The notes under the pieces are model-generated. The model was not told the origin of the DNA, searched no databases, and worked only from the letters and a program-made list of their open reading frames with translations. From Deltaproteobacteria bacterium (GTDB taxonomy: Bacteria > Bdellovibrionota > Bdellovibrionia > Bdellovibrionales > Bdellovibrionaceae), in NCBI GenBank assembly GCA_017302835.1, contig JAFLCC010000002.1, forward strand, positions 124,001-188,000: a DNA stretch of 64,000 bases. Direction: 5' to 3'. Positions 4,853-19,637 of this stretch are shown in pieces. Position numbers and translations under genes: made by a program. How positions within the stretch are numbered: position 1 is the stretch's first letter; every line of letters starts with the position of its first letter.

Positions 4853-5000
4853 CTAGAGCAACTAACCAAGAATTTCCGATAGGAACGTCATTTCAAATGG
4901 TTAAAAGAACTGTCGGAAAATTTAATCAGAATATCGAATCCCACTCAAAAACGGGGAACCACCAAAACACCCAAAAAAGTGCCATTCTTTGTCACTCGTT

Positions 5001-15576: not shown

Positions 15577-16866
15577 ATGATATTAAAAAGTTTAAGTTTT
15601 TCATTATTAGAGTTTGCGATAAATGGAATTGAAGTTTTCTTAAGACTTTATCTGCTTATTTTTTACACAGAAAGGGTTGGCTTAGATCATTATTATGTTG
15701 GAATAGCCTTGGGGGTATCCATATTAGTCGATGCTTTTTTAGATCCAATAATTGGAAGTTTTGTGGATGACTATAAAGTTAAACACAAACAGAGGTATCA
15801 CATAATTGCCTATGGTATTTTCTTTTGGGGGATCAGTTTTTTTGCTATTTTTAATCCTCCTCATTTTTCTAATGAGTATTTGGATTTTTCATACTTACTA
15901 GTGGCTTCATTAATTTTTAATATTTCCTATTCTTTTGTAACAATACCGTATTCATCTTCTGTAGCAGATATTTCTAAAGACTCTCAAGAGCGATTAAAGT
16001 TAATCGGTTGGCGGTCAGCAATTGGTAACTTAGGTTCTTTTATTGGCATTGGATTGCCTGGTATTTTTTTAATTTTTGATTCAGCCAATGCCTATAGGTA
16101 TTCGAGTATTTCTTTTGTACTCATTTTGACCGGATGTTTTTTGCTTACCTTTCTCACTTTAAAGAAACATAATAAGCCAAACATTGAATTGAAATCTGCC
16201 AAAATTAGTTTTGAAAAGTTATATAAAGGAATGAAAGAACCTTTCGTGATTTTATTTATGAGTGCATTTTTTATCGCTAATTTAGGGCTCACCATTAATT
16301 ACTCGTTAGCTATTTATTTTTATAAACTAAGGCTTAAATTCACGGAAGAAGAGATTCAAATAGTATTAGGTTGTTTTTTAATTTGTGCCTCATTGTTTGT
16401 GCCATTTTGGACTTATTTATCAAAAAAATATAATAAACTTTATTTATCGATTTATTCACTCATGTTAATGGGAATAGTAAATTGTTTTGTTTATGTTTAC
16501 TTACCAGAAAAAAATCTAATATTAACAGTTTTTTTTGCTTCTATTGTGGGGGGATTTTTAATAAGTGTAGCATTTCTTTTAGAGTCAGTTCTTACCGATT
16601 TTATCATTTTTAAAGAGAATCAGATGCATCAGGAAAAAATGAGTTTTTATTATAGTTTATGGAAAATGAATAATAAAATTTCTCGAGGAGTGGCCTTAAC
16701 TTTAACTGGATTTGTTCTAGAGCTAGTTAATATTAAGTCTCAAGTTCCTGGTGAAAAATATGATAGTTTAGCCTATGCTTTTGGGCCGGGAGTAGGAATT
16801 TTCTTTATTTTGGCTTGCTTGGTCTTGTTAGTAATCCCTAAGAGGTACTTTCATCTTTTAAAATGA
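15577..16866 (+). CDS. GPH-type MFS transporter
   Basis: 429 residues with about twelve hydrophobic helices. The loop after helix 2 reads DAFLDPIIGSFVDD, the signature of the glycoside-pentoside-hexuronide (MelB-like) branch of the major facilitator superfamily. Family members move sugars or other small solutes with Na+ or H+ across the inner membrane; the substrate here is unknown. The last bases overlap the following YkgJ-type gene (ATGA), so the two are co-translated. Confidence 0.85.
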   Translation: MILKSLSFSLLEFAINGIEVFLRLYLLIFYTERVGLDHYYVGIALGVSILVDAFLDPIIGSFVDDYKVKHKQRYHIIAYGIFFWGISFFAIFNPPHFSNEYLDFSYLLVASLIFNISYSFVTIPYSSSVADISKDSQERLKLIGWRSAIGNLGSFIGIGLPGIFLIFDSANAYRYSSISFVLILTGCFLLTFLTLKKHNKPNIELKSAKISFEKLYKGMKEPFVILFMSAFFIANLGLTINYSLAIYFYKLRLKFTEEEIQIVLGCFLICASLFVPFWTYLSKKYNKLYLSIYSLMLMGIVNCFVYVYLPEKNLILTVFFASIVGGFLISVAFLLESVLTDFIIFKENQMHQEKMSFYYSLWKMNNKISRGVALTLTGFVLELVNIKSQVPGEKYDSLAYAFGPGVGIFFILACLVLLVIPKRYFHLLK

Positions 16867-17249
16867 AAATAGATATAGATAGACCTTCAACTTGGAAAAA
16901 ATTTAAGACGAGCACTCAATGTGAATCTTGTTTTGCAGGTTGTTGTACCATGCCTGTTGAAGTTAAGATTGAAGATCTGATTCGACTCGACCTAACTGAT
17001 AAAGACGAGGTGGAGAATTTAGGTATTAAGCGAGTCACTAAAAAATTGATTAAAGAAAAAAAAATTATTTATTTTCGTGAAGCTACGGGTTTATTCATGC
17101 TTATGCAAAAGGCTAATAAAGATTGTATTTTTTTGGATTTAAAATCTAGAAAATGTACGGTGTATTCAAAAAGACCGGATGTTTGTCGAAATTTTCCAGA
17201 CGAAGGCCCTCGTCCTGGTTTTTGTCCACAGGAGTTAAAAAAAATTTAA
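16863..17249 (+). CDS. YkgJ-family cysteine-cluster protein
   Basis: 128 residues. Cysteines occur as CESCFAGCC near residues 20-28, then DCIFLD, KCTVY and RPDVCRNFP, the conserved pattern of the YkgJ/CxxCxxCC zinc- or iron-binding family. Function is unknown for the family. It overlaps the transporter gene by 4 bp. The C-terminus (PGFCPQELKKI) adds one more cysteine. Confidence 0.82.
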   Translation: MKIDIDRPSTWKKFKTSTQCESCFAGCCTMPVEVKIEDLIRLDLTDKDEVENLGIKRVTKKLIKEKKIIYFREATGLFMLMQKANKDCIFLDLKSRKCTVYSKRPDVCRNFPDEGPRPGFCPQELKKI

Positions 17250-17324: not shown

Positions 17325-18272
17325 TTAATAATCATCAGAGATAATTTTGTTATCTTCCAAGTTAGCTACATTTCGCATCGTCTGACTTTTAAGCTGTAAA
17401 AGTTGAACTTTGATTTGCATTGAGATTTCTTCAAGATGTTTGAATTCATCCCCAGCTCGTAGCTTCAAACGGACATCTTTTCCTTCAAGGGTGTCATCTA
17501 AAAATCTTTCAAAGGCATATAAAGGTCCTGCTATTCGATGCGAAATAATTTTACCCACAGTGAAAAGAATGGCGCAAAATCCTACAGAAATAATAAGAAA
17601 AGTAATTACAAAGGGCGAGATGAACTTATTAATTAAAAAAATGTTTCCTCCGACTAATTCTGAAATTGAAACTCGCAGGTAAGTATAAGAGAAAACCAAG
17701 CTAATCAAGGTTAAACCAACGCCAACTCCTAATAGCACAAGACAATATTTAATTTGGAAACTTGGATTAACCCAATATTTTCTTCTTGAGTTAATTTCAG
17801 GCCAAAGAATTTCGCCTTCCTTTATGATAGCTGTTACAATCATGCCGTACCCAACCCATTGAACTGCATCTGCTATATTAAAAGCGGGGCTAGATAAGGA
17901 AGGAGTGCCGATAACAATAAAGTCTACAACATAACCCCATATGATACGATCGGCAACATTACCAAGAATGCCACCTATTAAAATAGACAATCCTGTTCGT
18001 AACAGCAGGGACTTTATTGGTAGTAGATATTGAATGATGACATAAATGCAGAGTAAAAAGGCACCGCCCGTTGATAGTGAAACAATCCTTAAGACTTTAG
18101 GTAAATCAGAAAACAATCCTAACATGGCACCATGATTATGATGAAGTACAAAATTTAAATACCCATAGGAAATAATTCCTTCAATACTATTTGCCCATAT
18201 TTTTGTAAATCTATCAATTATCCAGCAAACAACAAGTGGGACTAAGACGATTAACCATTCATGTTTCTTCAT
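17325..18272 (-). CDS. lspA: Signal peptidase II fused to a two-helix HAMP-like module
   Basis: 315 residues from the ATG at 18272 (an upstream TTG at 18308 is possible). Residues 1-155 are a complete LspA: NVADR at 105-109, catalytic D117 (VVDF) and D135 (FNIAD), and four membrane helices. LspA cuts the signal peptide of prolipoproteins in the inner membrane. A typical LspA ends near residue 165. Here the chain continues with helices at about 176-198 and 218-240, a short loop between them, and a cytoplasmic HAMP-like stretch (HRIAGPLYAFERFL at 245-258, LRAGDEF at 271-277). Stand-alone proteins with this two-helix HAMP pattern exist in related bacteria; the fusion is unusual. Confidence 0.88.
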   Translation of the reverse strand: MKKHEWLIVLVPLVVCWIIDRFTKIWANSIEGIISYGYLNFVLHHNHGAMLGLFSDLPKVLRIVSLSTGGAFLLCIYVIIQYLLPIKSLLLRTGLSILIGGILGNVADRIIWGYVVDFIVIGTPSLSSPAFNIADAVQWVGYGMIVTAIIKEGEILWPEINSRRKYWVNPSFQIKYCLVLLGVGVGLTLISLVFSYTYLRVSISELVGGNIFLINKFISPFVITFLIISVGFCAILFTVGKIISHRIAGPLYAFERFLDDTLEGKDVRLKLRAGDEFKHLEEISMQIKVQLLQLKSQTMRNVANLEDNKIISDDY

Positions 18273-18422: not shown

Positions 18423-19637
18423 ATGATAGACATGAAAATTTTCTTATTTTTCGCTCTTGCTGGTTCAATTAACGTTTATGGAGAAGAGGATACTCCGGTA
18501 ACCCATGACCCTATAGCAGGTATAAATGAAGTTGTCGGATCTAGAGAGTGGAAAGCACCAAGGTATGAATATGCTGTGAACCCTTTGGGATACGAATCAA
18601 CTTCTTTTAAGACCCCGAAAGGGTTTGAATCAAGAGTGGAATTTTGGAAAAAAATTTACACAGAGTATTCTACTCAACAGGGTGTTATTCACGACAGTGA
18701 AGATGTAGGAGTGATCTATAAGGAAGTAAACTTTACTGATATAGAACAAAACTCAGAGTTGTCACTCAATCAAAAGGATAAGAAAAAACAAAAACGAGTT
18801 GAAAATTTTAAGAAGGAAATTCTGGAAAAGAATTCTAAATTAAAAATGTCAGACTTACGATTTCAGTTGGGGCAAAGCGATAGGATTCAAAAGGCAATAT
18901 ACATATCAGGACGGTATATCGAAGATTTTGAAGAAGTCTTCAGATTAAATAACCTGCCATTGGAATTAGTCAGATTGGTGTTCGTTGAAAGTTCATTTAA
19001 TGTTTTGGCGAGATCAAAAGTAGGTGCCAGTGGTCTTTGGCAAATCATGCCTTCCAATGCAAAACCATATAAAATGATTTCACATACTGTTGATAAAAGA
19101 AATCATCCAATCAAGGCAACGAAATTAGCCGCTAAGATATTGAAAAATAATTTTATGATGCTTGGGGATTGGGCGCTTGCGGTAACTGGTTATAATCATG
19201 GTCCTACAGGTGTTTTAAAAATGACTAGAAAATATAAAACCAGAAATTTGGTGGAATTAGTTGATAATGTAAACTCAAGAAAAAGTTTTGGTTTTGCGTC
19301 TAAAAATTTCTATGCCAGTTTCTTAGCCATTTTAGAGGTTGAAAAAAATGCTTCTAGATATTTTAAAAACATTACTTGGTCGAAAAAACTAGATGGGGAA
19401 AATTTAAAGTTACAACAGCCCGTTAGTTATCAAAATTTTCATAGTTGGTTTGATTTAAACTCTCAACATTTGCAATTATATAATCCGCATTTAACCAAAG
19501 CGGTGACATCAAGTAAAAATGATATCCCAGCTGGCACTTGGGTCATGATACCAGAAAAAAACTACTTACTGGCTCTTTCAGATATGGCTAAAAGAAAACG
19601 AAAACCAGCTCATGAAAGGATAGCTAAGGAAAGATGA
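18423..19637 (+). CDS. Membrane-bound lytic transglycosylase-like protein (SLT domain)
   Basis: 404 residues with a signal peptide (MKIFLFFALAGSINVYG; the ATG at 18432 is an alternative start). The SLT domain spans about 175-320: the catalytic Glu lies in VFVESSFNVLARSKVGASGLWQIMPSNA, and ALAVTGYNHGPTGVLK and FASKNFYASFLAILEVE follow, as in MltD. A LysM-like tail (DLNSQHLQLYNPHL...IPAGTWVMIPE) ends the protein. It cleaves peptidoglycan glycan strands in the periplasm. The N-terminal segment GFESRVEFWKKIYTEYST is shared with the enzyme at 54989, so the two are paralogs. Confidence 0.88.
   Translation: MIDMKIFLFFALAGSINVYGEEDTPVTHDPIAGINEVVGSREWKAPRYEYAVNPLGYESTSFKTPKGFESRVEFWKKIYTEYSTQQGVIHDSEDVGVIYKEVNFTDIEQNSELSLNQKDKKKQKRVENFKKEILEKNSKLKMSDLRFQLGQSDRIQKAIYISGRYIEDFEEVFRLNNLPLELVRLVFVESSFNVLARSKVGASGLWQIMPSNAKPYKMISHTVDKRNHPIKATKLAAKILKNNFMMLGDWALAVTGYNHGPTGVLKMTRKYKTRNLVELVDNVNSRKSFGFASKNFYASFLAILEVEKNASRYFKNITWSKKLDGENLKLQQPVSYQNFHSWFDLNSQHLQLYNPHLTKAVTSSKNDIPAGTWVMIPEKNYLLALSDMAKRKRKPAHERIAKER

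Follow-up and report, generated by a model that had tools for sequence, protein, structure and literature searches.

The window, a stretch of 64,000 nucleotides of bacterial DNA, carries on its minus strand an lspA-HAMP fusion gene, a single open reading frame of 315 codons (17328..18272, with the stop codon at 17325-17327). The frame starts with an ATG at 18272, encodes 315 amino acids without internal stops and has an alternative TTG start 12 codons upstream of the ATG. Its first half (residues 1-155; 17808..18272) is a signal peptidase II (LspA, Peptidase_A8) that includes the catalytic residues D117 (17922..17924) and D135 (17868..17870). The C-terminal module (residues 160-315; 17328..17795) opens with R163 and Q173 of an RKxYWVNPxFQ motif and continues into two added membrane helices, helix 5 (approximately residues 176-198; 17679..17747), which is marked by hydrophobic sequence, and helix 6 (approximately residues 221-243; 17544..17612), which runs into AS1 of a HAMP-like segment. 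This segment (approximately residues 244-295; 17388..17543) extends from SHRIAGPLYAFERFL to LKLRAGDEFKHLEE and includes HRIAGPLYAFERFL at residues 245-258 and LRAGDEF at residues 271-277. A divergent gene for an MltD-like lytic transglycosylase (18423..19637, plus strand) is a conserved neighbor of the fusion. Downstream of the fusion, and convergent with it, lies a pair of plus-strand genes encoding an MFS_2 symporter (15577-16866) and a CxxCxxCC (YkgJ-like) metal-chelating protein (16863-17249), the latter overlapping the end of the symporter gene.

The LspA half is readily recognized. PF01252 covers residues 14-150 (84.6 bits versus a cut-off of 25; E 1e-23), and PDB profiles match this half to 6ryo, 5dir and 9emz. 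An AF2 monomer model, for which a 40-sequence alignment was used as input, has a mean pLDDT of 85 and shows LspA ending near residue 156, followed by two helices (170-207 and 211-262), a linker (263-278) and a last helix (279-313). Significant Foldseek matches of this model are solved LspA structures only (6ryp, 6ryo and 5dir; E 1e-6 to 1e-8, TM-score by target 0.70-0.74) and are confined to the first half. What the earlier note had read from the DNA, a complete LspA followed in one frame by two membrane helices and a HAMP-type segment, is confirmed. The full-chain structure prediction that it had proposed as a check shows this same order, and the two aspartates that it had called intact are present at their codons.

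In an alignment of 36 fusions (A1) that extends down to 26% identity, D20, K24, N46, G48, N105, D117, N132 and D135 are invariant; D117 and D135 are also invariant in a further alignment (A4). The LspA motif residues N46, G48, N105, R109 and N132 are all present in the fused protein and are invariant or nearly so in A1. The fusion does not reach the cut-off of the NCBIfam lspA equivalog model, TIGR00077 (46.5 bits versus 73.95), and is thus a divergent LspA rather than the orthologous housekeeping type. Beside the active site, fused proteins have diagnostic residues Q138, W139, V106, I102, M/I50 and L51 where canonical LspAs have I, V, Y, A, A and F, respectively. The fused LspA is a distinct subfamily and probably an active enzyme, with a predicted peptidase activity.

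The C-terminal module was more difficult to place. PF00672, the Pfam HAMP model, did not match the fusion even at an E-value of 10, and searches of Pfam, NCBIfam and PDB sequences with the module found no significant family. When profiles were compared using hhalign, with nine HAMP regions from the window's own genome as the HAMP reference, the fused module matched HAMP at 95.1% (E 3e-8) and the profile of its standalone relatives (see below) at 96.6%, with the AS1 proline and the AS2 Asp-Glu in register; controls, i.e., reversed profiles and the LspA half, gave 0.2-1.1%. On the basis of this match and its controls, we refer to this region as a HAMP-like two-helix module. The HAMP identification made in the earlier note thus stands as profile-profile homology (95-97%), although the Pfam model is silent. 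In the AF2 model, the membrane helix is followed by a helix-linker-helix arrangement with a 16-residue linker, as in HAMP domains. A module-only model had WalK and McpB-McpC, both HAMP proteins, as its best Foldseek matches, with E-values that are not significant. LspA is a four-helix enzyme of in-in topology with a cytoplasmic C-terminus, and two additional helices would again place the HAMP-like segment in the cytoplasm. No output domain follows this segment, and the chain ends 20-30 residues past AS2.

The window's genome has five matches to the fusion protein: the fusion itself, one canonical LspA and three standalone proteins of the two-helix HAMP-like type (160-163 codons), whose similarity is to the C-terminal module only. 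The latter are homologous to the module (hhalign 99.2%, E 1e-19). The genes for these standalone proteins (L003, L004 and L005) occur in unrelated neighborhoods, one of them near pilin-like genes, and their products matched no family in Pfam or NCBIfam.

The fusion occurs in nearly all of 66 genomes of the family, with 45-86% identity over approximately 300 amino acids, and the exceptions are mostly incomplete genomes. It is general across the class and has a scattered occurrence elsewhere in the phylum; Bdellovibrio bacteriovorus kdesi is a named carrier (70%). The homolog search suggested in the earlier note therefore recovered the same C-terminal extension class-wide and in other families. 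That note had also listed two outcomes that would speak against a fusion, an assembly join and two adjacent genes in relatives, and neither was found. An artefact of assembly or annotation that merged two genes is vanishingly improbable, since considerably more than 100 independent assemblies, complete genomes among them, contain the same fusion, with no stop near residue 160. The examined relatives that lack the fusion have their lspA and module genes at unlinked sites (e.g., approximately 20 kb apart), and no case of adjacent separate genes was seen. Both halves are clearly under purifying selection, with dN of approximately 0.09-0.15; dS is saturated, so that dN/dS ratios are unusable. We conclude that the fusion is genuine and ancient and looks functional. 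We found no description of an LspA-HAMP fusion, or of a study of Bdellovibrio lspA, in the open literature searched, which covered few subscription journals.

Several fusions depart from the common type. Two genomes (L044 in G118 and L046 in G119) have second, highly divergent fusion copies beside an ordinary copy. In another family, three fusions (L056 in G158, L055 in G157 and L057 in G236) are 45-56% identical to the type found in the class, versus approximately 37%, and this identity suggests horizontal transfer. In G287, a fusion at approximately position 5000 on the minus strand (L060) encodes 487 amino acids, comprising LspA, the HAMP-like module and a C-terminal thioredoxin/AhpC-like domain with a CPLC motif, the last assigned by eye.

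The canonical lspA is retained in an ileS(-lspA-lgt) operon beside the fused copy (in the window's genome it has 177 codons and immediately follows ileS), and the fused copy is therefore not the housekeeping one. This bears on the proposal of the earlier note that lipoprotein maturation is coupled to a membrane signal. A second LspA beside the canonical ileS-lspA argues against bulk lipoprotein maturation being under signal control; a narrower coupling receives indirect support from neighboring REC-GGDEF and solute-binding lipoprotein genes. In a survey of 124 fusion loci, in which some genomes were counted twice, divergent upstream genes coded for an S13/DacB carboxypeptidase at 90 loci and for the MltD-like transglycosylase at 69. 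The S13/DacB gene usually lies between the MltD-like gene and the fusion and is missing in the window; comparison of this carboxypeptidase with solved structures in search of a predatory homologue yielded generic S13/PBP4 relatives only. On the same strand as the fusion, a gene for an SBP_bac_5 solute-binding lipoprotein (SBP) is located just upstream at about 40 of the 124 loci; at 22, the gene immediately preceding it is a REC-GGDEF gene. The gaps are mostly 3-80 nt, and in many relatives the fusion directly follows an SBP gene, a REC-GGDEF gene or both. Same-strand SBP_bac_5 and REC-GGDEF partners are absent from Bdellovibrionaceae proper, including the window, and the window's own genus has neither an SBP orthologue nor a lipoprotein gene adjoining the fusion.

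Small-genome relatives (1.4-2.0 Mb) provide a view of how the fusion decays, and degenerate fusions are confined to five of them. One has lost both catalytic aspartates (G126), three have kept both and lost most other active-site motifs (G123, G124 and G125), and in the fifth (G102) the loss concerns mainly D20 and K24. The HAMP-like signature is kept in all five. The lipobox Cys of the SBP is present in 36 of 36 readable rows with an intact LspA-HAMP (about 30 genomes, with the unlinked SBP of G105 counted) and in none of the five genomes with degenerate LspA motifs, which still have canonical lipoproteins and a canonical LspA. In the fusion tree, degeneration must have occurred twice separately, and G105, the sister of G102, has kept both enzyme and lipobox. 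One genome (G095) has lost the fusion and kept the SBP lipobox; canonical LspA can therefore presumably process this protein, and the dependence of the lipobox on the fusion is not absolute. Most SBP lipoboxes are of the ordinary type.

Persistence of the HAMP motif after decay of the LspA motifs, with an SBP that has lost its lipobox and become anchored in the membrane, implies a function without catalysis and speaks for the fusion being a receptor and not an enzyme. In that case, the LspA half would mainly dock the solute-binding lipoprotein, and ligand binding on the outside would be passed on through the HAMP-like tail to REC-GGDEF or another cytoplasmic partner, with peptidase activity being incidental or used once for maturation of the partner. 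HAMP receptors coupled to SBPs are common, and SBP and REC-GGDEF genes share one operon with the fusion. We nevertheless regard a receptor as rather unlikely, because all other lineages, despite their very deep divergence, have invariant catalytic residues, an adjacent REC-GGDEF gene is limited to 22 of 124 loci and the window's genome lacks an SBP orthologue.

A second link between the fusion and particular lipoproteins comes from a distant bacterial family (f12), in which the products of genes adjoining the fusion have a basic n-region, a hydrophobic stretch and the atypical lipobox [FY][NTQ][HNQ]C. Examples are LILLLSFNHC and LGLVLIGYNQC, and several unrelated protein families are represented. 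Such lipoproteins were found in 8 of 9 fusion genomes of this family versus 0 of 9 fusion-less genomes, a contrast that reflects few independent events and leaves out two candidates in G187 (Fisher p 4e-4, uncorrected for relatedness); the fusion-less set includes four congeners of a carrier. Genes with the atypical lipobox are mostly in the fusion's own operon. In two carriers (G174 and G179) the lipoprotein operon is away from the fusion, and physical linkage alone is thus not the explanation. Raw DNA counts of the pattern did not separate carriers from non-carriers and were too noisy, so that each match was checked for its N-terminal ORF context; the separation appears only with such contexts and in few genomes. 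An apparent positive in a fusion-less genome (L353 in G145) was in fact a polytopic membrane protein.

Five atypical-lipobox proteins, mostly with FQNC, are encoded in the window's genome, and one was found in five small-genome relatives with a lost or degenerate fusion. The five (L230:1416-2495:+, L231:265-1611:-, L240:1440-3026:+, L250:868-1653:- and L251:1-1716:-) are long proteins in which a basic n-region and a hydrophobic helix precede an FQNC or YTNC lipobox; one of them is VWA/MIDAS-like. They are possibly a lipoprotein class missed by standard lipobox rules. A conserved operon in other genomes (L390 in G147 C2, L391 in G174 C54, L392 in G179 C8, and L069) encodes a DUF1501-like twin-arginine-type protein, two FNHC/YNQC lipoproteins, a cytochrome-like CxxCH protein and often LspA-HAMP.

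Together, these data support an association of the fusion with specific lipoproteins. Predatory bacteria have phase-dependent envelopes, and an intact active site in a second copy would also suit a redundant, regulated general LspA that acts on the bulk lipoproteome without client specificity, with the tail tuning activity or stability by phase (attack versus growth). Multiple lspA copies in M. xanthus, another predator (PMC8689077), fit this explanation as well. It does not account for repeated operon linkage to specific lipoproteins, correlated loss with the lipobox of one lipoprotein or co-occurrence with the atypical lipobox, and we consider it unlikely.

We give roughly an even chance to what we regard as the most likely role, in which LspA-HAMP would be a specialized second signal peptidase II for particular lipoproteins, coupled to cytoplasmic signaling. 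Most likely, the LspA half would bind and cleave a restricted set of diacylglyceryl-modified prolipoproteins, the clients being, depending on the lineage, an OppA-type solute-binding lipoprotein or lipoproteins with the [FY]x[HNQ]C lipobox. The two-helix HAMP-like module would set a coiled-coil relay in the cytoplasm and connect the enzyme and its bound client to a partner there; in some lineages, this partner would probably be the REC-GGDEF diguanylate cyclase encoded alongside. In favor of a specialized enzyme are the invariant catalytic residues, the retained canonical lspA, the SBP and REC-GGDEF neighbors, the correlated decay and the f12 co-occurrence; peptidase activity, client specificity, the HAMP partner, and the signaling role and its direction are inferred. 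Weighing against a specialized enzyme are the window's own genus without an SBP, the lipobox kept in G095, the ordinary type of most SBP lipoboxes, the minority of loci with an adjacent REC-GGDEF gene, the raw lipobox counts, the lack of an output domain and, among the five degenerate copies, the catalytic aspartates kept in three and the loss of mainly D20 and K24 in G102. More tentatively, LspA-HAMP could be the dedicated peptidase of the [FY]x[HNQ]C class, in which the small residue that usually precedes the Cys is replaced, with a tail that reports client status or ligand to c-di-GMP signaling. If so, there would be a previously unrecognized lipoprotein class, and a signal peptidase would have become a component of transmembrane signaling.

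Signal peptidase II is an antibiotic target and is usually regarded as a constitutive enzyme with a single domain, and the lipoproteins of predatory Bdellovibrio act at the prey interface. A class-wide, ancient second LspA with a HAMP-like relay, encoded beside specific lipoproteins and at times a diguanylate cyclase, would mean that maturation of lipoproteins can be client-specific and linked to signaling. The disappearance of the active site together with a neighbor's lipobox amounts to a natural experiment that indicates the client.

Among known systems, signal peptidase II (PF01252, MEROPS A8; 5dir, 6ryo/6ryp and 9emz) shares with the fusion its fold, domain length, Asp pair and motifs. 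The fusion differs by approximately 160 extra residues and, from canonical LspA, by being a second copy outside the ileS-lspA operon, with its own flanking residues and a score below the TIGR00077 cut-off. Extra LspA copies are likewise found in a predatory bacterium, Myxococcus xanthus, which has tandem lspA copies in the lgt operon and further copies in the myxovirescin cluster; the review describing them (PMC8689077) mentions no HAMP fusion. Because producers of LspA-targeting antibiotics such as globomycin or myxovirescin carry extra lspA copies (PMC8689077) and residues flanking the active site of the fusion differ from the canonical ones, an inhibitor-insensitive spare LspA conferring tolerance to these antibiotics was considered. 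It is highly improbable given the near-universal vertical presence across a whole class and the lack of associated biosynthesis or resistance genes in fusion neighborhoods, and it leaves the HAMP-like tail unexplained. Pairs of a solute-binding lipoprotein and a membrane transducer, such as GlnH-GlnX of Corynebacterium (PMC9769921), combine an SBP with a co-encoded membrane protein for which signaling toward the cytoplasm has been proposed; they are an analogy in the way of working only, as the transducer is not an LspA. With the HAMP domain (PF00672) of chemoreceptors and sensor kinases, the module shares a preceding membrane helix, the AS1 Pro, a Gly before the connector and the D-E/F that opens AS2, but it is below threshold in Pfam, lacks a kinase, MCP or cyclase output and carries its own SHRxAGPxYAF signature. 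The standalone proteins of approximately 160 amino acids have in common with the module an RKxYxxxPxFQ start, two helices and a GP..LR..D motif, and differ in that they are not joined to LspA and are 27-29% identical to the module.
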